NCBI GenBank assembly: GCA_023151275.1
Contig: JAKLJI010000032.1
Location: 1 to 34,876, forward strand
Origin: Bacteroidia bacterium
GTDB lineage: Bacteria > Bacteroidota > Bacteroidia > UKL13-3
Direction: 5' to 3'
Length of the DNA stretch: 34,876 nucleotides
The position numbers and the translations under genes are program-made. Position 1 is the stretch's first letter. Every line of letters starts with the position of its first letter. The notes below the pieces were generated by a model. The model did no database searches, was not told the DNA's origin, and saw only the letters and a program-made list of their open reading frames with translations. Positions 4,629-28,130 of the stretch are shown here, one piece after another.

Positions 4629-4680
4629 TAAATGCTTGTGTTTTTACTGAATTTCGATTGGAATGTCATGTTGCCTTAGG

Positions 4681-4817
4681 GGTGGGAGCGGATACCCGAC
4701 TGGGCAGCTGGCTTAGCTTTGCGTGCAGGGCACGGCGACCTTAGAAGCCCGTGCAATGCGCTGCAAAGCTTGCCGGATGAACAGGCTGTAGCAGCGGACG
4801 ACCCGCCCCGCGAAACG
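4681..4817. repeat. GC-rich structured intergenic element
   Basis: This stretch between the PolX-like and DUF4199 genes is much more GC-rich than its surroundings and non-coding. It contains nested inverted repeats: AGCTTTGC (4715-4722) pairs with GCAAAGCT (4763-4770), and inside that GCACGG (4730-4735) pairs with CCGTGC (4749-4754). Its two ends carry similar direct motifs, GCGGATACCCGAC (4689-4701) and GCGGACGACCCGCC (from about 4794). The edges are set by composition. This resembles an interspersed REP/MITE-like repeat, but a structured RNA is possible. Only one copy is in the window. Confidence 0.5.
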
Positions 4818-4861
4818 TGAATTTGATTTTTGTTGGATTGGATTAGCGGGGAAGGCCCAGC

Positions 4862-5344: not shown

Positions 5345-5348
5345 GGCT

Positions 5349-5804: not shown

Positions 5805-5860
5805 GGAACGAAGAAAATGAAATCAGGCCAGATTGCCAATTTCAGTTAGCTTCAAACTAC

Positions 5861-6814: not shown

Positions 6815-6857
6815 GATTGTTAATTTAGTGGTTCAATCCCATTGCTTGTTGATTGAT

Positions 6858-11437: not shown

Positions 11438-11704
11438 GTTCAGTGTTCACATTTTTTGTGGATTTACTTCTTCTTTTTTTTGTAAAATTTTAATCAATCC
11501 AATTTTTAAGTTTTGTTGGATAGCAGACAATCCTGAACCATAAAATTGGTGTTAATGTTTTGTCATTCAGGTTTTTCTTGTCCTGAAGCTTACCTCTTTT
11601 TTTTAATTTACTGCCTATTGGCTTGACAAATTCCGGCATGCAAATCATACAGAATTTAAACTTTTTCTAATCTCAAACGTATTATTGCCTGCTAAGAAAG
11701 TTTT

Positions 11705-14700
11705 ATGGAAAATTATTACAACTCCAAATTAAGCAAGGCCTTATTCAGCTTACTGGTGTTCGCAAGTATGCTGATGAATCTTGCTAAGGCTCAGCCCATT
11801 TCAGGTACAAAAACCATTTGTGTTTCTGGATGCGATTATCCGAGCATTTCATCGGCTGTTGCTGCTCTTAATGCCAATGGCGTTGGAACAGGTGGAGCTA
11901 CATTCAACATTGCTGCCGGTTATTCTGAAGCGCTAACTGCTCCTTTGGTTATGACTGCAACAGGAACCGCGGCAACGCCAATTATTTTTCAAAAGAGTGG
12001 AACAGGTGCCAATCCTTTAATCACAGCCTATGAGGGGATTAAATTGGCAAGTTCAACAGATTCACTCGATGTGATGTGGGCATTTGTTGGAAGTGATTTT
12101 GTAACCATTAGTGAGATTGATTTGCTTGAATCTGCAACCAATACTACTCCAACTATGATGATGGAAGTGGGCTATGGTTTTTACAAAGGCAATGCTTTTG
12201 ATGGTTGCAATAACAATACCATTCAAAATTGTACAATCACATTAAACCGAGATAATTTTGTTGCAGCAGCTGCTGGTCCTCGTCAGAATGGTTCTGGCTC
12301 AGTTGCTATTGAATTTATTAACTCGCTAAGAACATCAGTTGGAACTGCATTAGCCATTTCTGCTGTTTCAGGAGCAAGTTCAAATAACAAAATATATGGC
12401 AATACCATTCAAAATTGTCATTTCGGAATTACACTAAGTGGGTTTGCAGCTCCAAGTCCTTATACGCTTGCCGACCAAAACAATGAAATTGGAGGCAACA
12501 CAGTAGGAACAGGGAACAATATTGTGAATTTTGGAGGAGGAGCAACCTCCACCAATGCTTGTGGCGCCATGTTGATTAATAACCAATGGTCGTTTTCAAT
12601 TCAACGCAATCTGGTTAACAACAATAATGGAACAGGTCTCAACCATGGTGGATCAAACAGAGGAATTTGGTTGTTCAACTCCTCAGCCGGAGCAAGTGCA
12701 ACTATTAAACACAATCGCATTTCAATTGCTGCCGGAACAAATACAGGTTCCATTACCTGGTGTCTCGACCTCGAAATGGCAACTTCAGGCGCAAATGGAA
12801 ATACCATTAACATTGATAGTAACGAATTCATAAACTGTACAAACACATCCGCTTCAACTGTAGCGTTCACCGCAATTTGGTTGAATACCGCTGCAACCAA
12901 TGTGAACGTTCGTGGAAATAGAATCTACGGATTCACATATTTGGGAACAGGAACTTCACAATGTATCCTAAGTCAGTTGGCCTGCGGAAACCTGAATATC
13001 TCAAACAACATTATTGATTCAGTTACCCTTGGAGGTACAACTGGCTCAGGTACGCATCACAATATTGGTGTTACATCGGCCCCATCTGTAAGTTTGAATA
13101 TTAGAGATAATATTGTTACTCGCACCACCTTAAATACTACAGGTACGGGTACAAAAACACTCTATGGAATCTATTATACAGGTGCAACTCCGGTAAATAA
13201 TTTTATTGGAAATACTGTTGATAGCATTACACGTAATGGAACCTCGGGTGGTACAACCATTGGTATTTATCAAGTTGGTGGTACAAATGGAACCTCTACA
13301 ACAACAGTAAGAAGAAATAAAATTAGCAACTTCTCAATCACTGGAACTGGAACCGGTTCAACCATGTATGGTATACAGGTTTCAACAGGAACGATAATTG
13401 TAGATAGTAACGAAATTTTCAATCTGAATATTGCTAAAACGACTGCTTCAGGAGCTCTTTATGGAATTTATGATATTTCATCGCCTACCAACGAGCAATT
13501 CAATGTTAACCGGGTTTACAACTTAAACAATATTGGAACCGGTTTGGTGTACGGAATTTATGCATTTACTACCACTGGTGTTAGAACTGTTGCAGGAAAT
13601 ACCATTTATAACCTAACCGGTAACAGCACAACTATCGGTATACTTATGACATCCAGCTCTCCAACAATTACCCGAAATAAACTGTATTCCATTTCAACCT
13701 TAGGAACCAATGGAATGGCTGTTGGTATTCGAATCTCATCAGTGGGTACATCTGGATTTAGTAATGTAGCTTATAATTTGATTTCCGGACTTAGCTCTCC
13801 ATTTTACAGCGGTGCTTCCGATGGAATCCGTGGTATTGATTTGACTACAACCACCGCCACTTCAAGTTCAAATGTGTATTACAATACCATTTATCTGGAT
13901 GCCAACCAAAGTGGTGCAAATTTCTCAAGTTCTGGCTTGTTCTTTACAACAAATGCCACGGCAACAACCGCAACATTGAATTTGAGAAACAATATCATTA
14001 TTAATAATTCTGTTCCAGCAGGAACAGGGGTTTCATCTGCCCTGCGCTTTAGTTCGGCTACCAATTCAAATTATGGCAGTTTGTCAAATAACAATTTGTT
14101 CTATGCAGGTCCAATTTCAAATAGCAACCTCTTGTATTTTGATGGTACAAACAGGGATTCAACACTGACCCAATTCAAAAACAGATTGGCTCCAAGAGAA
14201 GGCAGCTCCTTGCGTGAGAACATTACCTTCCAGAATATTCATCCTGATTCGAGCAATTACCTGATTCCAGCTCCTTTGGTTCCAACCCAGTTGGAAAGTG
14301 GAGCCACAGCAATTTCTGGTTTTACGGGAGATTACGCTTCATTAACCAGCAGAGCTAGCTTTCCACTTTCTGGTCAGGTAAATGGTGGAGGCTCTGCCCC
14401 TGATATTGGTGCATTTGAATTTGATGGAATTCCTGTTGACTTAACACCTCCAACAATCACCTATACCAACTTGTTAAATACGCTAGCTACGAGTAATCGT
14501 GTTCTGACCAATTTTGCTACTATTACAGATGCGAGTAAGGTAGATACTTCATTGGCCAACAGACCCCGTCTTTATTTTAAAAAATCGACAGATGCCAATG
14601 ATATCTCCGGTTGGAAGTATGTGTCAGCTTCAAATACTACATCGCCATTCTCCTTTACCATTGATTATACCTTGTTGAGCAGTGGTTCTGTTAGTCCGGC

Positions 14701-17700
14701 CGACACCATTGAATATTTTGTTGTTGCACAGGATATGGCTACCATTCCAAATGTAGGAATCAATAATGGAAACTTTACCTTGGCTCCTTCAAGTGTAGCA
14801 TTGGGCGCAACTGTATTCCCGATTCTTGCACCAGTTAATCGCTACAATATCGCTCAACCACTTCCTACAACCGTAACAGTTGGAACTGGAGGAACTTATA
14901 CAACATTCACAGGAACAGGTGGACTTTTTGAAGCAATCAATAACAATGTACTTGGCGGCAATACTACGGTAACTGTAATTTCTGATATTGTAGAGCCTGG
15001 AACATTTGCTTTGAATGGTTCTGGTTTTGGTGGATTTAATTTATCCATTGAGGGTTCTCCAATTCAGACGTATCAAATTTCTGGTGCAGCTGCCGGTCCG
15101 GGCTTGATTCGTTTAAGCAATGTACGCGGATTGAAAATTGATGGTGGACCAAGCAAATCGCTTCGTTTTTCTAACAATAGCACTTCAGGTCCGGTATTTC
15201 ATTTCCAGAATGATTGCTTAAGAGATACCTTGATTAACCTTCAAATTTTAGGTAACAATACCACAACCGGTAATATCCTCATTGGTCAAACTACAGGAAC
15301 ATTAGGTAATGATTCCTTGTTCATCACCCAATGTTATTTCAAAGACAGTTTCTCTATTCCTACAACGCATATTAACTCAAGTGGTAGTGTTGGTGGGCCG
15401 AATAGTTTCAATGTTATCACCAACAATGAATTCGTTAACTTCTCGGCAAATGCCATCAATGTTACTGCAAACGGCAACGGAGATAAATGGGTAATTCAAG
15501 GCAATTCAAGCTATCAAACAGCATCACGTGCAACAGCAATTTCTGTAATTCTGGTGCAAACCGGTAATGGACACTTAATCCGCAAGAACAGTATTGGAGG
15601 AGCAGCAGTAGATAGAAGTGGAGTTCCTTTCACAAATACCTCAAGTTATATTCGAGGTATTGAGATTAGTGGACAAACAGGTGAAGCCAGCTTAATTGAT
15701 AGCAATTACTTCTCCAATATTGTAACTACTTCGAGTGCTGGTGTTTTCGGAGTGTACATTAACTCAGGAAATGTAAATGTAAATGCCAATATTTTCGGTG
15801 GTCAGGCCAATACCTGGGATACTATCCAAAACGGATACGATAATGGTATCATCGCAGTAATAGGAGGAACAACTGTAAATATTACCAATAACCTGATTGG
15901 AAATGTTAGGTACATCAAATCAAGTGGTGATAGAACCGCAGGAATTCTTGTTTCAGGTGCTCTCAATGGACTTGTTATTCGTGAGAATACCATTCGAGAT
16001 ATTTTCCACGGAGGAACAGGAACAACAACAACCTCATTCAGACCAACCGGCATCATTGTGACAGGCGGAATAACAAATTCCATAATTTCTCAAAATACCA
16101 TTAGCAATATCAATTCAACAAATACTGGAACTGCTGCCTACGTGGTAAGTGGAATTTGTTTGTCGAGCACAGCCATTGCGAACACTGTGGTTTCCCGCAA
16201 CCGCATTAGCGATATTGGAACTCGTGGAATAGGAACAGGAACATCTGCTCCAACTGCTTATGGCATTCAAATTATTTCACAAGGTGCCGGAAATAGTTAT
16301 CACAACAACCAGATTTCAATGGGTAATAATACTTCTGGTCAGACCATTGCTATGGGTATTCGGGATGAATCAACATCAACACTGGCCTGGTATTTCAACA
16401 ATACTATCTTTATGAATGGTAATGTTAATGGTGGTGCCAATAATTCGTATGGTATTTTCAGAAACAGTACATCCAATATGGTGTTGCGAAACAACCTAAT
16501 TGTAAATCAGCGCACCACAAGTGGAACTGGTTTTGGATTTGCAACTGGTGCAGCCTCGGCTTCTGGCATTACTACAGCAACATCAAACTACAATTTGTTT
16601 GTTGTGAATGATACGGCCAGAGTTTCTGAATTCCCAACTGGGGTAGCGTATGGGGTTAGTGCGTATAACAATCAACTGTATGCACCTGGGTATAATACTA
16701 ACTGGATTGAATTGACTTCAAAAATTCCTGCTCAGGATTTGTTTGTTGATACCTTAACTGGAAATTTGAATATCAATACCAACCAACCAGTTTCATGGTA
16801 TGCAAACGGAAAAGGTATTGCCATTCCGGGTTATAGCGGTGATTTCAATGCAGCAAGTGGTGTTCGTTCTGTTGCAATTGCCGCTGGACCAGTTGATATT
16901 GGTTCGCATGAATTTACAACTACCGCCTTACCACCTTTGGCTGAAATCAACAAATTGCCTGCCTTGGGTGATAGCACCAGTTATTTCTTTGCAAATCGTT
17001 TGCTTGCAAAATCAGTGTGGAATTCAGGTTCAATCCCATCAACCACTAGCTTGAGATTCTATTCAGGTGAAGTACCTGCCAATATTCCAAGTGGTGCCTC
17101 TCGTATGCATGCTTACTACACAATCGACAATGGCAGCGCCAGCAATTACCAATCAACTTTAACCCTGATGTACGATTCAAGCATGTTAGGAAATGTTGCA
17201 TTGGCTTCAAGAGCTCAGGTAGCCAGGTATGTTGGAACAGGAACCAACTGGTTTAGGTACACCACAGGTATGGTAAACATCAACCTTGCATTGGTTTCTG
17301 CAAGCAATGTAATGAATGAAGGCATATTTGCATTGACAGATACTGCTTCAAATCCATTGCCTGTTACTTTGCTTAGCTTTAAAGGAATGGCTATTGGTAA
17401 GGATGCAAGTTTGAATTGGATTACGGGTTCTGAGCAAAATAACAAAGGGTTCTATTTGGAACGTTCTTTAGATGGCAAAGAATTCAAGCAAATTGCCTTC
17501 ATCAAGGGCATTGGAACAACACAACGCAACCAAAGCTATTCTTACTTGGATAAAGAGGTATTTGCCACAACTAGCAATTGGTATTACCGCTTGAACCAGG
17601 TTGATTTTGATGGAACGAATGCCTATTCATCCATAATCCTTGTTTCGAGTAAGTCCGCTCCGAATAGTGAAATTCAATTGTTCCCGAATCCTGCTTCTAC

Positions 17701-17914
17701 TGCTGTAAGCTTGATGTTTGAGGCCAAGGAGGGAGTTTCTCAGGTTGAGTTAAAAGATATCCGTGGACGAGTTGTAAAAGGTTTAGAAGCTAAAACAACT
17801 GAAGGTCTAAATACCATTCAGCTAAACGATTTGGATGGCTTTGAACCTGGTGTTTACTTCGTTTCTATTCAACAAGATGGAAAGGTAACAACCTTGAAAT
17901 TGATTAAAAATTAA
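11705..17914 (+). CDS. Giant secreted beta-helix protein with T9SS type A sorting domain
   Basis: The 2069-residue product begins with an N-region of about 12 residues and a hydrophobic signal peptide ending near AKAQP (about residue 31). Two Asn/Thr/Ser/Gly-rich parallel beta-helix modules occupy about 60-905 and 1059-1735. Each ends in a DIGxxEF motif (DIGAFEF, DIGSHEF). An Ig-like domain (about 914-1030) separates them. A PVTLLSFKG...LNWITGSEQNNKGF domain (about 1884-1985) precedes the C-terminal T9SS sorting domain (about 1988-2069: LFPNPAST, ending GVYFVSIQQDGKVTTLKLIKN split by one strand). It should be exported by Sec, then T9SS, and anchored on or released from the cell surface. No catalytic residues were recognised; adhesion or carbohydrate binding is plausible. 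Short DNA repeats inside reflect the repeated protein. Confidence 0.9.
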   Translation: MENYYNSKLSKALFSLLVFASMLMNLAKAQPISGTKTICVSGCDYPSISSAVAALNANGVGTGGATFNIAAGYSEALTAPLVMTATGTAATPIIFQKSGTGANPLITAYEGIKLASSTDSLDVMWAFVGSDFVTISEIDLLESATNTTPTMMMEVGYGFYKGNAFDGCNNNTIQNCTITLNRDNFVAAAAGPRQNGSGSVAIEFINSLRTSVGTALAISAVSGASSNNKIYGNTIQNCHFGITLSGFAAPSPYTLADQNNEIGGNTVGTGNNIVNFGGGATSTNACGAMLINNQWSFSIQRNLVNNNNGTGLNHGGSNRGIWLFNSSAGASATIKHNRISIAAGTNTGSITWCLDLEMATSGANGNTINIDSNEFINCTNTSASTVAFTAIWLNTAATNVNVRGNRIYGFTYLGTGTSQCILSQLACGNLNISNNIIDSVTLGGTTGSGTHHNIGVTSAPSVSLNIRDNIVTRTTLNTTGTGTKTLYGIYYTGATPVNNFIGNTVDSITRNGTSGGTTIGIYQVGGTNGTSTTTVRRNKISNFSITGTGTGSTMYGIQVSTGTIIVDSNEIFNLNIAKTTASGALYGIYDISSPTNEQFNVNRVYNLNNIGTGLVYGIYAFTTTGVRTVAGNTIYNLTGNSTTIGILMTSSSPTITRNKLYSISTLGTNGMAVGIRISSVGTSGFSNVAYNLISGLSSPFYSGASDGIRGIDLTTTTATSSSNVYYNTIYLDANQSGANFSSSGLFFTTNATATTATLNLRNNIIINNSVPAGTGVSSALRFSSATNSNYGSLSNNNLFYAGPISNSNLLYFDGTNRDSTLTQFKNRLAPREGSSLRENITFQNIHPDSSNYLIPAPLVPTQLESGATAISGFTGDYASLTSRASFPLSGQVNGGGSAPDIGAFEFDGIPVDLTPPTITYTNLLNTLATSNRVLTNFATITDASKVDTSLANRPRLYFKKSTDANDISGWKYVSASNTTSPFSFTIDYTLLSSGSVSPADTIEYFVVAQDMATIPNVGINNGNFTLAPSSVALGATVFPILAPVNRYNIAQPLPTTVTVGTGGTYTTFTGTGGLFEAINNNVLGGNTTVTVISDIVEPGTFALNGSGFGGFNLSIEGSPIQTYQISGAAAGPGLIRLSNVRGLKIDGGPSKSLRFSNNSTSGPVFHFQNDCLRDTLINLQILGNNTTTGNILIGQTTGTLGNDSLFITQCYFKDSFSIPTTHINSSGSVGGPNSFNVITNNEFVNFSANAINVTANGNGDKWVIQGNSSYQTASRATAISVILVQTGNGHLIRKNSIGGAAVDRSGVPFTNTSSYIRGIEISGQTGEASLIDSNYFSNIVTTSSAGVFGVYINSGNVNVNANIFGGQANTWDTIQNGYDNGIIAVIGGTTVNITNNLIGNVRYIKSSGDRTAGILVSGALNGLVIRENTIRDIFHGGTGTTTTSFRPTGIIVTGGITNSIISQNTISNINSTNTGTAAYVVSGICLSSTAIANTVVSRNRISDIGTRGIGTGTSAPTAYGIQIISQGAGNSYHNNQISMGNNTSGQTIAMGIRDESTSTLAWYFNNTIFMNGNVNGGANNSYGIFRNSTSNMVLRNNLIVNQRTTSGTGFGFATGAASASGITTATSNYNLFVVNDTARVSEFPTGVAYGVSAYNNQLYAPGYNTNWIELTSKIPAQDLFVDTLTGNLNINTNQPVSWYANGKGIAIPGYSGDFNAASGVRSVAIAAGPVDIGSHEFTTTALPPLAEINKLPALGDSTSYFFANRLLAKSVWNSGSIPSTTSLRFYSGEVPANIPSGASRMHAYYTIDNGSASNYQSTLTLMYDSSMLGNVALASRAQVARYVGTGTNWFRYTTGMVNINLALVSASNVMNEGIFALTDTASNPLPVTLLSFKGMAIGKDASLNWITGSEQNNKGFYLERSLDGKEFKQIAFIKGIGTTQRNQSYSYLDKEVFATTSNWYYRLNQVDFDGTNAYSSIILVSSKSAPNSEIQLFPNPASTAVSLMFEAKEGVSQVELKDIRGRVVKGLEAKTTEGLNTIQLNDLDGFEPGVYFVSIQQDGKVTTLKLIKN

Positions 17915-17935
17915 TTGGAGTAAATGCTCCCCTCA

Positions 17936-17970
17936 AAAGGCCTGCTTGAGAAATCAAGCGGGCCTTTTTT
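17936..17970 (+). terminator. Rho-independent terminator after the beta-helix gene
   Basis: A 14-base-pair stem (17936-17949 with 17954-17967, one G-U pair) closes a GAAA tetraloop and runs into a T tract ending at 17970. It lies 22 bases after the stop codon. The A-rich left flank makes it partly usable from the other strand too, but no minus-strand gene ends here. It separates the beta-helix gene from the glycan operon. Confidence 0.9.
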
Positions 17971-18177
17971 GTATTGAGGGATAGATCTTACCTAGTGCTT
18001 AGGGACTCCATTTACCCATTGCGAGTAAATGACCTAAAAAGTTTGATTGAATTTCTAGATATATCAGTTGGCTTATTCGAAGTTGAGGAGTAAAGGATTG
18101 ATCAGCAAATTATCTTATTTCAACTTTGGCGTTTCAGGTATTTTGGTATGAATTCATGCAATTTCCCTTGAATCCTG

Positions 18178-18185
18178 CATATTTG
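18178..18185 (+). promoter_or_regulatory. Possible -7 box of the cutC-led operon
   Basis: CATATTTG matches seven of eight positions of TAnnTTTG and ends 4 bases before the cutC ATG at 18190. If real, the transcript would be nearly leaderless. No convincing -33 TTTG at the usual distance was found. The rest of the 275-base gap from 17915 holds only the terminator. Confidence 0.3.
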
Positions 18186-18189
18186 GCAA

Positions 18190-18936
18190 ATGCGAGAATC
18201 CACGAATTCAATTTTACTGGAGGTTTGTGCAGCCACTGTTCATTCGTTAATAGCGGCAGAAGAAGGTGGTGCACACCGAATTGAGCTATGTGAGGCCTTA
18301 GAAATTGGAGGAACTACTCCTTCTCCCGGACTTTTTCTTCAAGCAAAACGCTGGTCTAAGCTGCCAATTTTTGTTTTGATTCGTCCCGGCACCCGCGATT
18401 TTTGCTATACACCCATTCAAAAACAGCAGATATTAGAAGATATACGATTCTTTCGTGACAACGGAGCCGATGGAATTGTTTCCGGTGCTTTAGTTCCGGA
18501 TGGATCGCCTGACCTTCCCTTTTTGGAGCAGTTAGTTCATGCTTCCGGAGAATTGCCCTTTACCTTTCACCGTGCAGCAGACCACTTTTCAACACCAGTT
18601 CAAAGTTTGATTCAACTGCGGGATTTAGGTGTTAGACGTGTGCTAAGCTCGGGTGGAAAGGCCAAAGCTATTGATGCATTGGATACACTAGTGGATTGGC
18701 AAAGTAAGCTTGGTTCTGAAATGATTGTTCTTGCAGGTGGGGGCGTTGAACCAAAGGATGCGCCTGCATTTGCAAAGGCCGGAATCAGGGAGGTGCATGG
18801 CTCTTTTCGGAAGATAGAAAATGGTCCCATGGATTTTCGTCCAGACATCCCTCGCTTTGGGGACGATTTTTTCCATCGCTCTGAAACTCTTACCGATTCG
18901 GTAAGAGAGTTTATCACTTTAAGCAAATTGAAATGA
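18190..18936 (+). CDS. cutC: CutC-family TIM-barrel protein
   Basis: The 248-residue protein matches CutC along its length: LEVCAAT at the start, GGAHRIELCEAL..GGTTPSPG, LIRPGTRDF.Y, GADGIVSGAL..DGSPD, TFHRAAD (usually HRAFD), VLSSGG and LAGGGV. It has no signal peptide, so it is cytoplasmic. CutC is annotated as a copper homeostasis protein from older E. coli genetics, but that role is weakly supported and the fold is that of an enzyme. Its stop overlaps the start of the beta-mannosidase gene by 4 bases (ATGA), which implies translational coupling. I infer a role linked to glycan breakdown more than to copper here. Confidence 0.88.
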   Translation: MRESTNSILLEVCAATVHSLIAAEEGGAHRIELCEALEIGGTTPSPGLFLQAKRWSKLPIFVLIRPGTRDFCYTPIQKQQILEDIRFFRDNGADGIVSGALVPDGSPDLPFLEQLVHASGELPFTFHRAADHFSTPVQSLIQLRDLGVRRVLSSGGKAKAIDALDTLVDWQSKLGSEMIVLAGGGVEPKDAPAFAKAGIREVHGSFRKIENGPMDFRPDIPRFGDDFFHRSETLTDSVREFITLSKLK

Positions 18937-21449
18937 AAATTAGAAATACGGTCCTTGCAGGTATTGTTTTTTGCATGGCACTTGCCAACCTGTCTGCTCA
19001 GCAAGTAGTGCCGTTGAATTGGCAATTGAGGCCTATGTTTGATTCAACCTGGTCAATTGCTGCAAAAGTTCCTGGATCAGTGTATGTCGATTTACGATTT
19101 GCGGAAAAAATTCCTGACCCCTATTTCGGAACAAATGAAAACAAGGTGACTTGGGTAGATACTTCAAGTTGGGAATATTCCACTGAAATTGAATTGACCA
19201 AAGAACAGGTTGCCAATCCTTTGGCCCGACTCGTTTTTGAAGGGCTGGATACCTATGCCGAAATTTGGTTGAATGATTCAAAATTGGGCGATTGTGATAA
19301 TATGTTCAGGGCCTGGACTTTCTTGGTAAAAGGTAGATTAAAGGAAGGTCGCAATACACTTAAAGTACGCTTTTTACCAGCATCACGTATCGCAAAATCT
19401 GCTTATGATAAACTTTCTTCCAAATTGCCAATCGACGAACGTGTAATTCCCCGCAAGGCCCAATACCAGTTTGGTTGGGATTGGGGGCCTAAACTAATTG
19501 GGGCAGGGATTTATAAGCCTGTATATTTCTCCTTTCCTCAGAAAATTGAATTTCGCTATTCAAGCATTCGAACCAAAAGCATTGAAAACAATACGGCTAA
19601 AATGGAACTCGAATTGCATGTTCAGGCTTCACGGAAAATGAAGCTAAATGTGAAGTTACAAGAGCTTTCAAAATTGTTTAGATTAACTAACCTATCGTGG
19701 GCAGTAAATAAAGGCTTGAATAAAATCCTTATTCGGTTTGAAGTTCCAAATCCTCAACTCTGGTGGCCGCATGATTATGGAACTCCTTATTTGTATACCG
19801 CCCAATTGCTTCTTGAGCAAGAATCAAACCTGCTGCACCAATCAACTACTAAATTTGGGATAAGGCAGGTGGCCTTGCAACGGCAAAAAGATTTGAGCGG
19901 GGAAAGCTTTTTGTTTCTGGTGAATGGAAAAAGGGTATTTGCCAAAGGTGCAAATTACATTCCCATGGACGCAATGCCGGGAACTGTTTCAGAACAAAAA
20001 CAACGGGAGCTTCTTCTCAAAACCAGAAACGCCAACATGAACATGATTCGGGTTTGGGGTGGAGGAATGTATGAATCGGACAGGTTTTACGAGCTTTGCG
20101 ATAGCCTTGGAATTTTGGTTTGGCAAGACTTTATGTTCGCATGTAGTTTTTATCCCGGTGATACTTCATTTGTAAAACAAGTTGAACAGGAAATAAAATA
20201 CCAAGTTCAGCGACTTAAAGGTCATCCCTCATTGGTTTTATGGTGCGGAAACAATGAAGTGGACGAAGCTTGGTTCAACTGGGGTTATCAGAAATCTTAT
20301 GGCTATTCCCAACTAGATTCAATTCGGATTCGAAAAGAATACGAAAAAGTATTCCATCAACTTATCCCGGGAATGCTAAATCAACTCGATCCAACCCGAC
20401 CTTACCATGCATCATCGCCCTTGTTTGGCTGGGGAAGAAAGGAAAGTATGACCCACGGAGATGCCCATTACTGGGGCGTTTGGTGGGGTGAAGAACCTTT
20501 TGAAAAGTACCTCGAAAAGGTGCCTCGGTTCATGAGTGAATATGGTTTTCAAGCATTGCCAAATCGCGAAACCATGGCTGAAATGGGTGCGCTTTCTAAA
20601 CCAGTAACCGATTCTGTTTGGAAGCAGCATCAAAAGCATTCTCGCGGATTTGAACTTATCGAACAAGCTATGAAGCGCTATGCCTTTGTGCCCAATCACA
20701 TTGACGATTATGCCTATCTCTCACAGCATCTTCAAGCAAAGGCTTACAAAATGGCGGTTGAAGCGCATCGACGCGCAAAACCTTATTGCATGGGTACCTT
20801 GGTTTGGCAGTTGAACGATTGCTGGCCTGTGGTGTCTTGGTCGGTACTGGATTATAATCTGCGCACTAAAGCGTCCTATCATCAACTCAAAACAAGTTAC
20901 CAACCTATTGCCTTAAGTGTTTCCATAAAAGATAGCGCTATACTTTGCTATGTATTGAATGATGCTCAAATGTTGGGTGCAGATACCTTGACATGGAGCT
21001 TAAAATCATTGAGTGGCGTTGATTTACGCCAGGGCATTCGCCCTTTTAACCTGATTCAGGATTCATCTCAGGTGGTATTAAAACTTCCATTGTCTGATTT
21101 GGAAGGATTTAGGAAAGAGGAAGTGTATTTTCAATGCAGTATTAAGAATCAAACTGAAACCCTTTTGTTAAGTCCGGAAATGGATATCAACTGGCCCACT
21201 ACACCCATTCTGGTGAATTGGAAACAACAAGGCAAATCCTGGTTTATTGAGCTTGAATCTACCGGCTTGCAAAAAGGGGTAATGCTGCGCGCCGAAATAC
21301 CTGGAGAATTCAGTGAAAACTATTTTGATTTACTTCCCAACGAACATAAAGTAATTCGCTTTGATGCAGAAAATGAGGATAGCCTTAAATTGCACTTTCG
21401 AAGTCTGAATATGTTATACAATCAACATAAAAACAATGCACAGAATTAA
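18933..21449 (+). CDS. Secreted/periplasmic beta-mannosidase (GH2)
   Basis: The 838-residue enzyme carries a signal peptide (MKIRNTVLAGIVFCMALANLSAQ). It has the GH2 order: jelly-roll sugar-binding domain (PGSVYVDLR, TYAEIWLND), Ig-like domain (PQLWWPHDYG at about 275) and TIM barrel. The acid/base is E442 in LWCGNNE and the nucleophile E536 in FMSEYGFQ. MIRVWGGGMYE and DFMFACSFYP (both about 370-410) are beta-mannosidase hallmarks. It should release mannose from the non-reducing end of beta-mannosides, including Man-beta-1,4-GlcNAc of the N-glycan core. Length is typical. It overlaps cutC by 4 bases and the GH20 gene by 14 bases. Confidence 0.93.
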   Translation: MKIRNTVLAGIVFCMALANLSAQQVVPLNWQLRPMFDSTWSIAAKVPGSVYVDLRFAEKIPDPYFGTNENKVTWVDTSSWEYSTEIELTKEQVANPLARLVFEGLDTYAEIWLNDSKLGDCDNMFRAWTFLVKGRLKEGRNTLKVRFLPASRIAKSAYDKLSSKLPIDERVIPRKAQYQFGWDWGPKLIGAGIYKPVYFSFPQKIEFRYSSIRTKSIENNTAKMELELHVQASRKMKLNVKLQELSKLFRLTNLSWAVNKGLNKILIRFEVPNPQLWWPHDYGTPYLYTAQLLLEQESNLLHQSTTKFGIRQVALQRQKDLSGESFLFLVNGKRVFAKGANYIPMDAMPGTVSEQKQRELLLKTRNANMNMIRVWGGGMYESDRFYELCDSLGILVWQDFMFACSFYPGDTSFVKQVEQEIKYQVQRLKGHPSLVLWCGNNEVDEAWFNWGYQKSYGYSQLDSIRIRKEYEKVFHQLIPGMLNQLDPTRPYHASSPLFGWGRKESMTHGDAHYWGVWWGEEPFEKYLEKVPRFMSEYGFQALPNRETMAEMGALSKPVTDSVWKQHQKHSRGFELIEQAMKRYAFVPNHIDDYAYLSQHLQAKAYKMAVEAHRRAKPYCMGTLVWQLNDCWPVVSWSVLDYNLRTKASYHQLKTSYQPIALSVSIKDSAILCYVLNDAQMLGADTLTWSLKSLSGVDLRQGIRPFNLIQDSSQVVLKLPLSDLEGFRKEEVYFQCSIKNQTETLLLSPEMDINWPTTPILVNWKQQGKSWFIELESTGLQKGVMLRAEIPGEFSENYFDLLPNEHKVIRFDAENEDSLKLHFRSLNMLYNQHKNNAQN

Positions 21450-23709
21450 AAAAACTATTGCACTACTAGGTTTCTTGTTGCTACAAATACAGTTTTCTCA
21501 TGCCCAGTTTTCAAGTGGGATAATTCCAAAACCTCAATTTGAAAAACCTGGAAAGGGTTATTTTCAAGTTAACTCATCCTTGCAAATTCAATACCTTCAA
21601 AAGCAAAAACAGGTTGCTGCCTCAGCACAATTTCTTAAGCAATTTTTTCATGAGGCAACGGGTTTTCATGTGCCAATTAAACCGGTTCAAAAGGCAAGTA
21701 CTGGATCTGTTTTTTTAGTGCTTGATGCATTCCCGGATTCTTTAGGTTTGGAAGTGTATTCTCTTTTAGTGAATGATAAGGGTGTTTTAATTCGTGCTAA
21801 AACTCCGGTCGGTTTAATTCATGGCATTCAAAGTTTACGCCAACTTATGCCAATCCAAATTGAAAACAGGTCAGTAAAACATCCCCTTCAATTTACTATT
21901 CCTGCTACACAGATTCTCGACTTTCCTTCCTTTCGCTGGCGAGGTCTGCAGTTGGATTGTTGCCGTCATTTTATGAGCAAGGAGTTTGTATTGCGCTATA
22001 TCGACTTGCTTTCGTTTTATAAACTCAATAAGTTTCATTGGCACTTAACAGAAGACCAGGGTTGGAGAATTGAAATCAAAGCATTTCCATTGCTTACTCA
22101 AATCGGCTCAAAAAGGGTAGAACAGGATGGTTCTGAATATGGTGGTTATTATACTCAGGAACAAATTCGTGAAGTAGTGGCTTATGCCAAGGCCCGCCAT
22201 ATCGAAATTATTCCTGAGATTGAAATGCCTGGCCATGCCCAAGCTGCATTAGCGGCATATCCAAATTTATCATGTACCGGCCAACCCTTACAGGTTGCAA
22301 ATACCTGGGGTGTATTTAAAGACATTTATTGCCCGGGAAAAGAAGAAACCTTTCATTTTATTGAGGCAGTGCTTGAAGAGGTGGTCGCACTTTTTCCGGG
22401 TGAATACGTGCATATTGGAGGCGATGAAGCTCCAAAGTTTAGGTGGGAAAATTGCCAACATTGCCAGACCCGCATGCGGGATGAAAAACTGAAGGATGCG
22501 CATGAACTCCAAAGCTATTTTATTAAACGTGTAGGAACTTTTCTTACCAATCGCGGAAAGCGCATGATTGGTTGGGATGAAATTCTGGAGGGTGGACTTG
22601 CTCCTCAGGCTACAGTTCAATCCTGGAGAGGATTACAAGGTGCAATTGATGCTGCAAAGTCTGGCCATGATGCCATTGTTTCACCAACCTCTCATCTGTA
22701 TTTTGATTATGGATTGAAGTCGATAGACCTCGAAAAAGTGTATGGTTTTGAGCCCATTCCTGCTGAATTGAACTCCTTTGAAGCAGGGTTTATCTTGGGA
22801 GGAGAATGCAATATGTGGACAGAAAAAGCACCGCAAGAGCTTGTAGATTCAAAGGTATTTCCACGAATGCTTGCCATGTCGGAAGTGCTTTGGACCTACA
22901 AAAAAAGACCTGATTTTAATGCCTTCAAATCACGTTTGAAATTGCATTATCCCCGCATGGATGCCATGCAAATTCATTACGGTTATGAAAAGCAACCCAT
23001 ACGTTTTGAATCTGAAATCCTTGCCGATAAAAATGCAATTCGGATGAAAATACTTGCCGAACCACAAGAATTGAAGGTGAATTATACTCTCAATGGTTCG
23101 GCCCCAACTCCCATGTCCGCTGTTTATATGGAGCCACTACTCATTCAAACCAGCACTCAGTTAAATGCTCGTGCATTCTTGGGTGATAATCCGAATGCTG
23201 AATTGTTTAGTAGAACAATTCACTTGCACGATGGCTTAAAAGTAAACTATGAACTAAATCAATCCCCATCACAGTTCTATGCAGGTAATGGGGTTAAATC
23301 GCTTCAAGATGGACAACGTGGTTCAATTGATTTTCACGATGGATTGTGGTTGGGTTGGCAAGACGGTAATCCTGAACTGAAAATAGATTTAGGTAAGCCG
23401 GTAGCCTTGAAAAGGGTAGTTGCAGGGGCCTTACAAAGTATTCCATCCTGGATTTTCTTTCCAGAGAAATTGGAACTTGAGGCCTCTAATGATGGTGTGA
23501 ATTTCTCGCAAATTGCTTACCTCTATTGTGCCGATTATAACCATCCTGAACAAACCCGTACCAAAGATTTGGAACTCAGAATTTTGGAGCCAAAGCCATA
23601 TCGATATTACCGTCTAAAGGCAATTCGACTTGATAAATGTCCGAATTGGCATGATGCTGCAGGAAGCAAAACCTGGTTGTTTTTAGATGAGCTAATGATT
23701 TTTGAATAA
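21436..23709 (+). CDS. Beta-N-acetylhexosaminidase (GH20)
   Basis: The 757-residue protein has a signal peptide (about residues 1-24, ending SHAQF). It then has a GH20 N-terminal domain, including GLIHGIQSLRQL, and a TIM barrel. The catalytic pair D330-E331 lies in HIGGDEAPK, for substrate-assisted hydrolysis of terminal beta-GlcNAc/GalNAc. WHLTEDQGWRIEIK (about 199-212) and IPEIEMPGHAQA are further family landmarks. A chitobiase-like C-terminal domain begins near 545, and an F5/8-type (discoidin-like) carbohydrate-binding domain occupies about 620-757. It acts in the periplasm or at the surface. It starts within the last codons of the beta-mannosidase gene, so the two are translated together. 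Confidence 0.93.
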   Translation: MHRIKKTIALLGFLLLQIQFSHAQFSSGIIPKPQFEKPGKGYFQVNSSLQIQYLQKQKQVAASAQFLKQFFHEATGFHVPIKPVQKASTGSVFLVLDAFPDSLGLEVYSLLVNDKGVLIRAKTPVGLIHGIQSLRQLMPIQIENRSVKHPLQFTIPATQILDFPSFRWRGLQLDCCRHFMSKEFVLRYIDLLSFYKLNKFHWHLTEDQGWRIEIKAFPLLTQIGSKRVEQDGSEYGGYYTQEQIREVVAYAKARHIEIIPEIEMPGHAQAALAAYPNLSCTGQPLQVANTWGVFKDIYCPGKEETFHFIEAVLEEVVALFPGEYVHIGGDEAPKFRWENCQHCQTRMRDEKLKDAHELQSYFIKRVGTFLTNRGKRMIGWDEILEGGLAPQATVQSWRGLQGAIDAAKSGHDAIVSPTSHLYFDYGLKSIDLEKVYGFEPIPAELNSFEAGFILGGECNMWTEKAPQELVDSKVFPRMLAMSEVLWTYKKRPDFNAFKSRLKLHYPRMDAMQIHYGYEKQPIRFESEILADKNAIRMKILAEPQELKVNYTLNGSAPTPMSAVYMEPLLIQTSTQLNARAFLGDNPNAELFSRTIHLHDGLKVNYELNQSPSQFYAGNGVKSLQDGQRGSIDFHDGLWLGWQDGNPELKIDLGKPVALKRVVAGALQSIPSWIFFPEKLELEASNDGVNFSQIAYLYCADYNHPEQTRTKDLELRILEPKPYRYYRLKAIRLDKCPNWHDAAGSKTWLFLDELMIFE

Positions 23710-23717
23710 AGAATAGT

Positions 23718-26348
23718 ATGAGAGTATTTTTCATTGCCTGTGTAGCTATTTTCTGCATCCAACTCAATGCGTTTTCGCAATTGGTAATTGGCGATAAGAT
23801 TTATCAAGAACAAATAAGTAAAGACTTTGACGCACGTTGCAAACAACTTCCTGCGCGTCTAGGCCCGATCCAGAAGAAACTGCAAAATGATAAGTCTGAG
23901 AAAGCTTATGCTTTGAAGTATTTATACGCATACATGCCATTAAGTGATATTGGAGATTATTCAGATGCGTTTTTTGAAGGACAAGTGAATGCAAGCTTTA
24001 ACGCATTGAGTCAAATGCCTTGGTCAAAGCAACTGAGTCCGGAATTGTTAAGGCATTATGTATTACCTATTCGCGTAAATACCGAAAACCTGGATACCGC
24101 AAGGCCATATTGTTTTTCCCAATTAAAGGACCGTGTAAAGGGCATGAGCATGACAGATGCTGCGCTTGAGGTGAACCATTGGTGTCATGAAAAAGTGGTA
24201 TATAAATCAACCGATGGAAGAACCTCTTCTCCATTAGCAACCATTCGAACCGCTTATGGCAGGTGCGGCGAAGAATCAACGCTGTTGGTTGCAGCATTGC
24301 GAGCAGTTGGAATTCCGGCTCGTCAGGTTTACACGCCGCGATGGGCGCATTCAGATGATAATCATGCTTGGGTTGAAATGTGGGTTGATGGGGCATGGCA
24401 CTATACCGGTGCTTGTGAACCGGAAGCTGTTCTTGATAAAGGGTGGTTTACTGGTCCCGCAAAACGTGCCATGATGATGCACACCAAAGTATTCGGAAGG
24501 TATGAAGGTAAGGATGAGGTGCTTGAATCTGGCTTTGGACACAGTAGAATCAATATCCTTTCCAACTATGCAGAAACACATGTGGTAAGCATTCAGGTTG
24601 TTGATGGAATGGGAGCTCCTGTTGCAAATGCACAAGTTGATTTTGGCTTGTACAACTACGCAGAATTTTATCCTTTAGCAACTCGAATAACCAATGCAAA
24701 TGGATTATGCAGTTTGAAAACCGGTAAGGGAGATTTGATGATTTGGGTAAGTTCAAATCAAGGTTGGGCTCAGGTGAAATTGGATACACGCCAATCAAAC
24801 GAACTAAAAGTTACCGTTTCTCAAAAAACTCATCAGGGACTTGAATCTTTTGAAATGGTTCCTCCGGCTGAATTACCGGTATCTGATAAGGGCACAAAGG
24901 AGGAGAATCAAAGAAATCAGGTTCGATTAAGTGCAGAAGATAGCATCCGTTCGGTTTATGTTGATGCCTTCCCAACCCAACAGCTCGTTTCTAATCTTGC
25001 AAATCAACTAAAGGTAAACGCAGATTCCTTGTGGAGAATCATCTCCAGAGCTGCTGGTAATTCGGATGTTTTGTTTGCCGTTTTGGAAAAACACAAATTG
25101 CATGGAGCAATTGCCTTAAGGTTGTTTTTTAGTTTATCTGAAAAAGACCTAAGGGATGCAAATTTTGCTGTTTTGGATGAAGCTGTGCAAGCTGCCAGTC
25201 AGAATCCTCAGTGCAACGGATTTTTAATTGATTATGTTTTCAACCCTCGGATAAGCCTAGAACAATTGAAACCTTTTCGTGGATTATTGGCAAAGTCCAT
25301 CAGCAAAGGTTTACAGGATTCATGCAGGAAAAATCCGGCTTATGTTTTTCAACGATTCAGACATTATGCTCAATTCGATTCAACCCAAAATTATTACGGC
25401 GTTTTGTTAAGTCCGGCTGCTGTTGCAGCATTGAAAGCCTGCGATCTGAAATCATTTCAGGTGTTTGGTGTAGCCTTGTTAAGAACCATGCAAATTCCTG
25501 CTCGAATTGAAACTGCCCGTTTAATGCCTCAAGCTTGGGTAGGGGATAAGTGGGTTGATTTGCAACCTGATGTTTCGGGTAAAGAAAGTAAAATCAAGTT
25601 AATTGTTGATTTGGCAGGTTCCGATTCCATGTACACCCCTGCTTATGGGATTCACTTCAGTTTGGCACGACTTGAAAAGGGTAGGTTCAAAACCCTCGAT
25701 TATGAAGGTGATCCCGTGTTTTCCAAGTTCCCTGCCTCCCTGGAATTACCGCAAGGAACCTATCGCTTATTGAGTTCAATTCGCTCTTCCAACGGTACGG
25801 TAAAAGGTAGCCTAGACTATTTCGACTTGAATGAACAAGTTGCCAGATTGAAAAAGGAAGTACGTTTGTTTCAGTTGACTGAAACCAGCAAAATTCTTGG
25901 CAAAGTAAAAGTGGATCAACTTCCTGCCTCCGTTTCTAAACAAATGGCAGCTCAGGGATTAATCCTGATTTGGATAGATCCGGTAAAAGAACCTTCCCGC
26001 CATGTTCTAGCAGAAATGCAAGATTTGCGCAGACGCTTTGAAGATTGGGGCGCTAAGGTATTAATTCAGTTTGATGACAAAGCCAGTAAATCCAAAATGG
26101 ATATCCGCAAATACCCGGATTTGCCCGCCAATTGTGTGTATCAGGTTGACGAGCAACTTGAATTGCAAAAACAAGTTCTGGAGGCCTTAGGTAAAACCGC
26201 CTCTGAAGCTTATCCGCTGATGGTTTTTATGAATGAACAAGGAGAGTTGAGTGCGTATTCATCAGGATATGCAATTGGCAATGTAGAGCGTATTTCAAAA
26301 ACGGCCCTAAATGAACTGTATTGCAAGAAGCCGGTGCTGAAGCCATAG
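23718..26348 (+). CDS. Secreted transglutaminase/PNGase-like protein with C-terminal thioredoxin-like domain
   Basis: The 876-residue protein has a signal peptide (MRVFFIACVAIFCIQLNAFSQ). Its transglutaminase-like core has the Cys C183 (YGRCGEESTLL) and His H216 (DDNHAWVEMW), with RAVGIPARQVY between, as in PNGase/transglutaminase enzymes. At the third triad position, where PNGase-like proteins have Asp before a CE, this reads TGACEPE (G231, E234). An Ig-like segment follows (about 290-355). A second, degenerate transglutaminase-like stretch near 575-625 (QVFGVALLRTMQIPARIE) and a thioredoxin-like end (about 745-870, no CxxC) complete it. It starts 8 bases after the GH20 stop. Possible jobs are deglycosylation or proteolysis of glycopeptides; this is inference. 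Confidence 0.78.
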   Translation: MRVFFIACVAIFCIQLNAFSQLVIGDKIYQEQISKDFDARCKQLPARLGPIQKKLQNDKSEKAYALKYLYAYMPLSDIGDYSDAFFEGQVNASFNALSQMPWSKQLSPELLRHYVLPIRVNTENLDTARPYCFSQLKDRVKGMSMTDAALEVNHWCHEKVVYKSTDGRTSSPLATIRTAYGRCGEESTLLVAALRAVGIPARQVYTPRWAHSDDNHAWVEMWVDGAWHYTGACEPEAVLDKGWFTGPAKRAMMMHTKVFGRYEGKDEVLESGFGHSRINILSNYAETHVVSIQVVDGMGAPVANAQVDFGLYNYAEFYPLATRITNANGLCSLKTGKGDLMIWVSSNQGWAQVKLDTRQSNELKVTVSQKTHQGLESFEMVPPAELPVSDKGTKEENQRNQVRLSAEDSIRSVYVDAFPTQQLVSNLANQLKVNADSLWRIISRAAGNSDVLFAVLEKHKLHGAIALRLFFSLSEKDLRDANFAVLDEAVQAASQNPQCNGFLIDYVFNPRISLEQLKPFRGLLAKSISKGLQDSCRKNPAYVFQRFRHYAQFDSTQNYYGVLLSPAAVAALKACDLKSFQVFGVALLRTMQIPARIETARLMPQAWVGDKWVDLQPDVSGKESKIKLIVDLAGSDSMYTPAYGIHFSLARLEKGRFKTLDYEGDPVFSKFPASLELPQGTYRLLSSIRSSNGTVKGSLDYFDLNEQVARLKKEVRLFQLTETSKILGKVKVDQLPASVSKQMAAQGLILIWIDPVKEPSRHVLAEMQDLRRRFEDWGAKVLIQFDDKASKSKMDIRKYPDLPANCVYQVDEQLELQKQVLEALGKTASEAYPLMVFMNEQGELSAYSSGYAIGNVERISKTALNELYCKKPVLKP

Positions 26349-26389
26349 TTGTATCTGATTGATTTCGTATTGTTTGTGTTTTCTTGGTT

Positions 26390-26435
26390 TGTTACAAAAT
26401 TTTAATAATTTTGATTTTTTGTTATGTTTGTAACA
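26390..26435 (+). promoter_or_regulatory. Promoter and palindromic operator of the XRE-ImmA-PIN module
   Basis: TATGTTTG at 26423-26430 matches the TAnnTTTG -7 box exactly, 26 bases before the XRE start. It lies inside a 16-base near-palindrome, TGTTATGTTTGTAACA (26420-26435, five of six half-site bases paired). A further half-site TGTTACAAA (26390-26398) forms a perfect 9-base inverted repeat with TTTGTAACA (26427-26435). This layout suits autorepression by the XRE protein. No strong -33 box was found. Confidence 0.6.
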
Positions 26436-26456
26436 TGCTGATGAATTGGTTTTGCC

Positions 26457-26804
26457 ATGAAAATAGTTGAAGTAATTGGAAGAAACATTCGCTTATTCAG
26501 GGAGAGGATGGGGATAAGTCAGGATGAGCTAGCAAGCTATCTTGGAGTTAATAGGGTGATGGTAAGCTACTATGAAACAGGGGAAAGGGAAGCACCTGTT
26601 GAGGTTTTGAATAGGCTTGCAGATTTGTTTGGGATTGATTTAGCTGATTTACTTGAGGAGAATGCAAGTCATGTTAAAGCGAATCTTGCATTTGCTTTCA
26701 GAGCAGAGAGTTTTTCTGAAAACGATTTGAAAAGTATTGCCAACTTCAAAAAGATTGTCAAAAACTACCTTAAAATTTCAGATTTAATACATGAGCTTAA
26801 GTAG
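26457..26804 (+). CDS. XRE-family HTH regulator (ImmA/IrrE-associated)
   Basis: The 115-residue protein has a Cro/CI-type helix-turn-helix at about residues 8-62 (IRLFRERMGISQDELASYLGV, split here by its recognition turn, then VSYYETGEREAP). Its C-terminal helix, FRAESFSENDLKSIANFKKIV, is the tail often found in XRE proteins encoded next to ImmA/IrrE proteases. It should bind the palindrome over its own promoter. It is separated by 2 bases from the protease gene. By analogy with ImmR-ImmA and DdrO-IrrE, cleavage of this repressor by the protease would relieve repression. Its arginine codons are mostly AGA/AGG, unlike several neighbours, which hints at acquisition. Confidence 0.88.
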   Translation: MKIVEVIGRNIRLFRERMGISQDELASYLGVNRVMVSYYETGEREAPVEVLNRLADLFGIDLADLLEENASHVKANLAFAFRAESFSENDLKSIANFKKIVKNYLKISDLIHELK

Positions 26805-26806
26805 CA

Positions 26807-27538
26807 ATGGATACCATACTCAGGAAAGAAGCGGCAACTTTTAGGGAACGAAATGGCATAGGATCCACCGAGCCAATTACGTTAAAAAGTTTATTAATCA
26901 AGCTAAATGTTCTGACAGTTTACAAGCCCTTATCAGGAAAATTTTCCGGAATGGCACTTTTAGCAAGTGATAAAAGGTTTATGCTTGTTAACTCTGATCA
27001 TCCAATTGGAAAGCAGAACTTCACAATTTGTCATGAACTCTATCACTTGTTTATTCAGGACGAATTTTCATCCGTACAATGCATAACTGGTAGATTTGAT
27101 AAAAAGGCGGATAGAAACGAATACAATGCCGATGTTTTTGCAGCTTATTTACTTATGCCAGAGGATGGCATATTGGAACTAATTCCAAATGAAGAATTGA
27201 AAGGCAAGAACAAAGTTAGTCTTGAAACCCTTCTGAGGATAGAACACTATTATTCTTGCAGTAGACTAGCTTTGTTGTATAGGTTGAGTTCCATGAATCT
27301 TATTGGGCCTGAAAAGTTTCAGCAGTTTAAGTTTAATGTGATTCAAAGTGCAGCGCAATATGGTTACTCCAATGAGCTATATAAGCAAGGAAATCAAGAT
27401 GAAATAATTGGGGATTACGGACAATTGGCCAAAAGATTATTTGAGGTAGAGAAAATATCGGAGTCTCATTACTTGGAATTAATGGAAGATATTGGTAAAA
27501 ATGTAACCAAGGAAGATTCAAATGAATGGGAATTCTGA
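26807..27538 (+). CDS. ImmA/IrrE-family metallo-endopeptidase
   Basis: The 243-residue protein carries the zinc site HELYH (H76, E77, H80) in FTICHELYHLFI. The downstream acidic helix NEYNADVFAAYLLMPED (104-120) probably supplies the third ligand, E105, matching the usual E..AN.FAAELLMP. Such proteases cleave XRE-type repressors in response to stress or signals, as ImmA does in the element ICEBs1. The C-terminal part (about 160-243) is helical without recognised sensor motifs. It lies 2 bases after the XRE gene and overlaps the PIN gene by 17 bases, so all three are one transcript. Confidence 0.9.
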   Translation: MDTILRKEAATFRERNGIGSTEPITLKSLLIKLNVLTVYKPLSGKFSGMALLASDKRFMLVNSDHPIGKQNFTICHELYHLFIQDEFSSVQCITGRFDKKADRNEYNADVFAAYLLMPEDGILELIPNEELKGKNKVSLETLLRIEHYYSCSRLALLYRLSSMNLIGPEKFQQFKFNVIQSAAQYGYSNELYKQGNQDEIIGDYGQLAKRLFEVEKISESHYLELMEDIGKNVTKEDSNEWEF

Positions 27539-28046
27539 AAAGTTCATTTTGCTTGATTCGGATGTAGTCATTCATTTCTCCAAAGCCGGAATGGTTTCCC
27601 TGCTCAAACAACTTTTCCCAAATCGGCTATTAATATTGGATGTAGTAGTTAAAGAGTTGATGAAGAAGCAATCCTTTAGGCATGAAATGGAAAACATACT
27701 CAAGTTTAGAATAGCAAGGGAAATTCCACTTCCAATTACCAATAAAGATATTTTACTTGAATATGCAAAGTTGAAATCCAGATATGGGGACGGAGAAAGT
27801 GCGTGTATGGCCTTTTGCAGATACAGTGATGATATACTTGCAAGTAGTAATGTCAAGGATATAAAAGCGTATTGCGAGGAGCATTCAATAACCTACATAA
27901 CCACAATGGATATTCTTTTAGAAGCATTTAAAAAGAAGACTATTAGTGAAGCCGATTGCAATGAGTTTATTAACCAGGTCAAAAGCAGGGGTAGTAAATT
28001 GCCTGTTGATACTATAGATGAGTTTGTTAAAATGAAGGGAAAATAA
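27522..28046 (+). CDS. PIN-domain nuclease-like protein (DUF3368/COG2405 type)
   Basis: The 174-residue protein looks like a PIN-fold RNase. Acidic residues sit at D12 (ILLDSDVVIHF), E45 (VVVKELM) and E92 (YGDGESACMAF). The fourth region (DDILASSNVKD, about 103-113) has Ser/Asn where many PIN toxins have Asp, although D103-D104 and D113 are near. The following ITYITTMDILLEAFKKKTIS resembles the G-T-x-G-x-L-L-x-A-K segment of the DUF3368 group. PIN proteins often act as toxins cutting tRNA or mRNA. No separate antitoxin gene is present; the XRE/ImmA pair encoded with it would be the control. Overlap with immA is 17 bases. Confidence 0.78.
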   Translation: MNGNSEKFILLDSDVVIHFSKAGMVSLLKQLFPNRLLILDVVVKELMKKQSFRHEMENILKFRIAREIPLPITNKDILLEYAKLKSRYGDGESACMAFCRYSDDILASSNVKDIKAYCEEHSITYITTMDILLEAFKKKTISEADCNEFINQVKSRGSKLPVDTIDEFVKMKGK

Positions 28047-28068
28047 GCCCCAAAAACAACTAAATTCG

Positions 28069-28102
28069 AGTTGGAGAAAGATCCAATGGCACCAACTTTT
28101 TC
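28069..28102 (+). terminator. Weak terminator-like hairpin after the PIN gene
   Basis: AGTTGG (28069-28074) can pair with CCAACT (28092-28097), which is followed by a short T run. A competing internal pairing TTGGA/TCCAA exists. It lies between convergent PIN and NUDIX genes, where a terminator is expected, but the stem is only six base pairs. Confidence 0.3.
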
Positions 28103-28130
28103 TTGGTTTTAAAAGGGTTTTCGCTTAAAA

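Follow-up and report, generated by a model that had tools for sequence, protein, structure and literature searches.

What do a repressor, a zinc protease and a PIN-fold protein accomplish together when their genes are packed side by side, and do they form a unit at all? The question is raised by a locus in the window, i.e. the whole 34,876-nucleotide stretch of DNA from a Bacteroidia bacterium that was analysed here. The features needed to follow the argument are listed below.

11438..28130, no strand: coaD-NUDIX interval of 16.7 kb, of which the module is the final part
26390..26435, no strand: putative paired operator with 9-bp perfect inverted arms, TGTTACAAA and TTTGTAACA, 28 bp apart
26423..26430, forward strand: TATGTTTG, resembling a -7 box as read from the sequence and overlapping the right operator arm
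26457..26804, forward strand: xre, 115 aa, XRE/Cro-type repressor, CapH-like
26807..27538, forward strand: immA, 243 aa, ImmA/IrrE (M78) zinc metallopeptidase, CapP-like
27032..27046, forward strand: HELYH zinc-binding motif of the protease (residues 76-80), as found in the sequence
27338..27535, forward strand: C-terminal tail of the protease (residues about 178-243), candidate PIN-neutralising element
27522..28046, forward strand: PIN-fold gene, VapC-like, 174 aa

The XRE-ImmA-PIN trio is a real unit, beyond chance. The tight packing described in an earlier note on this DNA agrees exactly with the ORF coordinates, which give a gap of 2 bases between xre and immA and an overlap of 17 bases between immA and the PIN gene. 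Among 17 close relatives found with PIN queries, a HEXXH protease gene lies directly 5' in every case, and an XRE gene precedes it in 16, the contig of L012 ending at that point. When 19 other loci were read, XRE, ImmA and PIN stood in this order in 18, and L012 ends inside immA. A chance gene cluster is ruled out by this linkage in all close relatives. Likewise, the 10 ImmA loci that resemble this one (core score >200 bits) all have PIN as the next gene, one of them shortened; for L082 and L087, the PIN was identified by reading those loci.

The hosts of the PIN relatives comprise Bacteroidota, Bacillota, a plasmid and phage contigs. Close relatives came from the genome contigs of Parabacteroides massiliensis (L002), the plasmid search (L007, Hymenobacter; L008, Acetoanaerobium), phage records (L009) and viral contigs (L010-L013, L079, L080), and a protease search of viral contigs added two more full modules (L083, L087). 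Strong PIN matches occurred in 3 of 395 genomes of a phylum draw and 7 of 395 of a class draw, the source genome and G394 being present in both. The distances of the three proteins correlate over 16 modules (Mantel r 0.80-0.84, p 0.0002), which points to one shared history and to a module that travels as a unit. The earlier note had staked its proposal beforehand on the PIN gene being kept beside the XRE-ImmA pair in relatives; it is kept there across the phylum and beyond, but not as a trait of the lineage, where occurrence is sporadic and the module is absent from the 15 listed genomes of the same genus or family.

Two individual copies merit description. On the Hymenobacter plasmid NZ_CP053906.1 (L007, 6199-6947), immA is annotated as two ORFs, the first containing HEXXH and the second the tail, and xre and PIN seem intact; this is either a sequencing error or a natural protease/tail split. 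On the phage contig L080 (3986-4351), PIN is cut to 121 aa, and xre and immA seem intact.

If the trio is a unit, the identity of its parts should indicate what it does. The earlier identification of an XRE repressor and a zinc protease with an intact HExxH site stands: the former matches Pfam HTH_3 (E 5e-14) and the latter Peptidase_M78 (E 4e-15), with H76, E77 and H80 of its HELYH motif invariant in 10 relatives. In PADLOC, the best profile for the protease is capP (E 1.4e-26), followed by PDC-M69B (8e-19). Its structural model (pLDDT 84.6) was built, like that of the PIN protein, from an alignment of the target with relatives found in the locus search only. The nearest fold is CapP 7t5t (Z 15.8, rmsd 3.4, 171 aligned, model residues 3-193), and PprI/IrrE comes second (Z 12.1-13.2). 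The protease is therefore of the CapP family and fold by both measures, the fold match stopping near residue 193. A GAF-like domain, which is required in PprI, was not seen in the protease, so that ssDNA as the trigger is a guess.

The XRE protein has a conserved C-terminal segment (AFR...FK.IV.NY). It matches the PADLOC capH profile over residues 7-102 of 115 (E 2.8e-9), a match that is mostly HTH and to which general HTH profiles score similarly, several other HTH families being equal or better.

For the third protein, Pfam yielded nothing at E<=1 and NCBIfam nothing meaningful; the sole PADLOC match is a weak full-length one to PDC-S70 (E 1.3e-6). The PIN fold claimed for it is nevertheless borne out by structure prediction. 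The AlphaFold2 model (pLDDT 92.5), compared with the PDB, matches VapC toxins, the best being 6ifc_A (Z 12.7, rmsd 2.6, 116 aligned) with the leading rows tied; no close solved homologue was found. Residues D12, E45 and E92 do not vary in either alignment, of 11 and of 9 rows, and are retained at 24-49% identity; N110 is invariant in the 11-row alignment and replaced by D in one row of the 9-row alignment. These four residues occupy the positions expected for PIN motifs I-IV. On its predicted fold, the protein is probably a VapC-like RNase.

The region upstream of xre suggests how such an operon could be controlled. The pattern TGTTACAAA-N28-TTTGTAACA occupies 26390-26435, its first base being the start of the feature as originally described. 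An operator-like arrangement of this kind lies 5' of xre in 17 of 19 modules, spanning 47 bp in 11, 46 in three, 49 in one and 40 in two Acetoanaerobium-type modules, and the arms match at 7/7 bases in 13 modules and at 6/7 in four. These 17 are not 17 independent cases, as L011/L013 and L002/L080 are near-copies. The scan upstream of xre in the 19 modules did not find the pair in L009 and L095; the latter is a SYY/SYF-type module without a detectable paired operator across 420 bp 5' of xre. The pattern for the arms was composed after viewing the sequences, and the controls were scanned with the identical pattern, which occurred in 43 of 9500 shuffled upstreams and in 3 of 989 other tiles of the module loci.

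The arms also differ with the recognition helix of XRE. SYY/SYF helices go with the arm TGTTACA (7 modules), RSAYxNYE with (T/C)GTGGCA (5), DRGAYANYE with TGTTGCA (3) and DQSYISKCE with TGTCATA (2), and the two arms vary jointly between modules. This pairing goes along with the clades of XRE, and descent confounds it in part. It supplies ready-made matched and mismatched arm-helix combinations for experiments on binding and swapping. In the genome, the pair is a single site, whether sought exactly or with up to two mismatches; at three mismatches there are 5 further sites, against 6 for a reversed control pattern. Since there is only one operator site, the repressor seems dedicated to its own operon, and a role of XRE as a global regulator was rejected. 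The consensus of the Bacteroidetes -7 box is TAnnTTTG, which TATGTTTG resembles; no -33 box at the proper distance from it was found in the sequence upstream of xre.

Taken together, we lean towards a CapH/CapP-like derepression switch that controls a VapC-like RNase and serves a response to stress or phage. The derepression logic is plausible because the protease is nearest CapP in both family and fold and because a dedicated putative operator lies 5' of xre. XRE would keep the xre-immA-pin operon low by binding the two inverted half-sites 5' of xre. A signal, which could be ssDNA, would then cause the ImmA-family protease to cut XRE in its C-terminal dimerisation segment, by homology with the cutting of CapH by CapP and of DdrO by PprI. 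Both of these analogues are described as activated by ssDNA, and CapH/CapP pairs as controlling adjacent immune operons (PMC10904395, PMC13373217). With repression lost, a burst of operon expression would follow, and the PIN ribonuclease would, judging from its modelled fold and conserved acidic residues, cut RNA and stop growth or kill. If transcriptional release were the sole control, leaky PIN would stay unchecked; another product of the operon probably keeps it in check, the likeliest being the protease with its tail.

That last step brings in the strongest alternative, in which ImmA is the direct antitoxin of PIN, XRE does no more than autoregulate, and activation comes from loss or inactivation of the antitoxin with no cleavage of XRE, as in a RosmerTA-like two-part toxin-antitoxin system. 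ImmA antitoxins are reported for RosmerTA (PMC10440598). The 17-base overlap of immA with the PIN gene fits such an arrangement and recurs in most relatives, though L096 and L097 have none. Among the eight places with weak PIN matches, three have a fused HTH-ImmA upstream (L005, L006, L099), so that distant relatives are fused HTH-ImmA plus PIN. Against a purely binding antitoxin, HEXXH is intact in the relatives read, the gene being two ORFs in L007 alone; catalysis thus seems to be selected and would be superfluous for binding. We regard this two-part scheme as unlikely, if by no means negligible.

Beyond residue about 178, the protease carries a tail with helices at 204-213 and 219-228, modelled with lower confidence. 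The tail survey kept 30 ImmA loci, of which 28 gave scored ORFs (L065 and L066 gave none), and 24 of the 28 have a tail of at least 69 residues. A PIN-like gene comes next in 19 of these 24 (20 if the uncertain L063 is counted), the tailed loci without one being L047, L058, L061 and L069, and in none of the four tail-less loci. The association of tail and PIN neighbour over the 28 loci, a sample biased by a PIN-linked query, has a one-sided Fisher value of 0.003-0.006, and it is compatible with the RosmerTA-like scheme too. Among the 19 PIN-like calls, 10 are Pfam-supported at E<=0.05 if L005 is taken to be the PIN of L051, several of them under the curated cut-off; of the remainder, three belong to this PIN clade, three are near-copies outside the Pfam scan, and those for L054, L056 and L060/L006 were made by reading the sequence alone. 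DUF4411 and DUF3368 are families of PIN proteins. In viral contigs, 7 tailed ImmA have a PIN, L088 and L089 are tailed without one, and L090 has neither; tails are hence not exclusive to PIN systems. The idea that only PIN-linked ImmA match the query to its end was rejected, as other matches reach residues 203-242 (G075, G146, G328). Just three matches of the ImmA search exceed 200 bits, and all are PIN-linked.

The weak PIN matches offer a further hint of what the tail may be. In four of the eight places, a UPF0175-like ORF precedes PIN (L098, L101, L102, L103), confirmed as PF03683 in L101 and L102; one place, L100, has neither this ORF nor a fused HTH-ImmA. PF03683 itself has no match at E<=1 in the ImmA protein here and none at E<=1e-5 in the whole genome. 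Compared by hhalign, the fused HTH-ImmA tails score 29 against UPF0175 (probability 51-55%, control maximum 6.9), with a fused-tail profile from 18 hand-chosen loci and 16 sequences, L058 and L060 having been dropped by the motif used, and a UPF0175 profile in which the ORF was taken by a chosen motif from 17 of 26 loci. The tail type of this module scores 15-16 (probability about 3%), against a control maximum of 9.3 over 26 unrelated windows; with the tail alignment of least length, the observed 15.96 was almost equalled by the highest of 100 shuffled scores, 15.9. Compared directly with the fused tails, it matches weakly (probability 1-6%). The weak likeness of this tail type to UPF0175 is suggestive, short of proof.

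The tail may thus be a candidate for the missing PIN antitoxin. The absence of a conventional small antitoxin, as the earlier note put it, holds in that there is no VapB-type gene, those upstream of PIN being ImmA and XRE, and the protease tail may explain it. We tentatively propose, giving it less than an even chance, that the protease is also the antitoxin and that its tail is a far-diverged PIN-binding element of the UPF0175 type fused to an M78 protease, so that signal sensing, repressor cutting and the holding or release of the RNase would meet in one protein. If true, the switch would be locked twice, once at the level of transcription and once by direct binding. Fused RmrA-PIN systems would then follow the same HTH-M78-tail-PIN plan, and the free UPF0175-PIN pair would be its simple counterpart.

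The genomic setting bears on the remaining alternatives. In this genome, coaD ends at 11437 and the NUDIX gene begins at 28131, 16.7 kb apart, whereas coaD directly adjoins NUDIX in both congeners with the locus and in 4 of 10 other relatives inspected. In none of 29 relatives carrying NUDIX is the module within 1.5 kb of that gene. The module is accessory here, as had been surmised from its position. The stretch 11438-28130 is lineage-specific and combines, with the module, a large T9SS-sorted protein of 2069 aa and a glycan-degradation operon; its contents include CutC, glycosidases of families 2 and 20 and a transglutaminase-like protein that is absent from 30 relatives. The T9SS domain, along with the relatives, points to Bacteroidota as the source.

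Another alternative is mobile-element control of the ImmR/ImmA type, in which the pair formerly governed excision or lysogeny genes and PIN is a passenger. ImmR-ImmA governs ICEBs1 (PMC2701414), and relatives of the module have as neighbours integrases (L009, L011), a Mob gene (L083) or terminase and portal genes (L010, L079), or are found on a plasmid (L007). In L087, the neighbour is a phage helicase. We consider this account very unlikely, given that the sole operator-like site in the genome is at the module, that neither an integrase nor a transposase was noticed in the ORF list of the 16.7 kb, and that PIN is constant and co-inherited. On the phage contigs L010 and L079, the module stands beside the terminase large subunit gene in a moron-like manner.

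Placement in defence islands, for which the earlier note had proposed a test, holds in part: of 7 chromosomal relatives, 4 have type I R-M or CBASS genes near the module, whereas the surroundings of the copy in this genome, where the PADLOC scan covered the three module proteins, showed no evident defence gene. The corresponding count is 0 of 7 in control regions (one-sided p 0.035, with the criterion chosen after viewing), the controls being one 19-kb stretch per same genome at fixed coordinates, in which PADLOC matched DpdF, mad3, GlgB, PsyrT, C3a193 and the defence candidate PDC-S01. Type I R-M is found near the module in L133 and L134, and neither R-M nor CBASS in L132, L136 and L137.

Four of these regions have features of their own. 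In L131 (G393), a dense defence region holds type I R-M, a GajB-like UvrD helicase, a TIR protein, the module and an AbiEii-like protein. In L135 (G479, 2372-6844), the module and a CBASS set of HNH, patatin phospholipase and CD-NTase genes share a strand, with the module directly 5' in the usual place of CapH/CapP and the CBASS genes starting 443 bp after PIN. The same divergent two-gene cassette, a UvrD-like helicase and a protein of 657-671 aa, flanks the module in L136 (5043-8082) and L137 (5232-8359), and is possibly an undescribed defence pair.

The least probable reading, that PIN is a regulatory or scaffold fold without toxicity in a housekeeping or metabolic operon, could draw on the missing Pfam and NCBIfam family and on a motif IV of S-S-N where more distant relatives have D-D/D-E, but it fits poorly with the retention of D12, E45 and E92, the sporadic occurrence in both genome draws and the R-M and CBASS neighbours.

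How does the module, read as a derepression switch, compare with known systems? PDC-S70, described as a PIN nuclease whose defence role is unproven (PMC12988326), shares the weak full-length profile match; it is a single-gene candidate, whereas XRE and ImmA belong to the unit here. With VapBC, the module shares the PIN fold and conserved acidic residues, but membership is ruled out by the genes upstream of PIN, there being no adjacent VapB-type small antitoxin gene. Like CapH/CapP, it has a small HTH repressor and an M78 protease in adjacent genes 5' of an effector; here, however, the effector is a PIN that overlaps the protease gene, and a helical tail is present where the CapP alignment ends.

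The likeness to RosmerTA, or D25-PIN, lies in an ImmA domain with an HTH in front and diverse toxins, including PIN-like ones. Ernits et al. (2023; PMC10440598) describe ImmA (D25) as a hub among antitoxins, its partners including PIN-like proteins, and show that a RosmerTA pair gives phage defence. There, RmrA is one HTH-ImmA polypeptide, whereas XRE and ImmA are separate ORFs here, each matching parts of RmrA profiles. The tested RmrT of phage Kita depolarises membranes, in contrast to the PIN fold here; the PADLOC matches of PIN contain no RmrT row, RosmerTA toxins being diverse. ImmA/CapP proteases have by now been seen ahead of many kinds of immune system, and an antitoxin role is reported for ImmA proteins as well. 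A compact module of one operator, repressor, tailed protease and nuclease would make the question of protease, antitoxin or both directly testable.

The nearest precedent is that of Makarova et al. (2009; PMC2701414), who predicted that Xre-COG2856 with PIN or RelE makes up a system of three components, the repressor being cleaved by the protease. With this prediction and the ImmA-PIN partners listed in 2023, the combination of XRE, ImmA and PIN is not undescribed, and the earlier view of PIN as the least described part needs amending. The open-licence literature, outside which most subscription papers fall, yielded no experiments on an XRE-ImmA-PIN module in split form, nor any report of that form with a co-varying paired operator or of a UPF0175-like or antitoxin tail. 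The kind of module is known from prediction; its split three-gene form with a paired operator, and perhaps a tail antitoxin, is hardly studied. As in the 2009 systems, an Xre HTH gene adjoins a COG2856/M78 (ImmA) protease gene, PIN belongs to the same operon across genomes, and the same protease-repressor-toxin logic is proposed. Those systems are mostly fused Xre-COG2856 next to PIN or RelE, whereas here the three genes are separate, the PIN forms a clade of its own that has no Pfam family, and both the paired operator and the protease tail are conserved.
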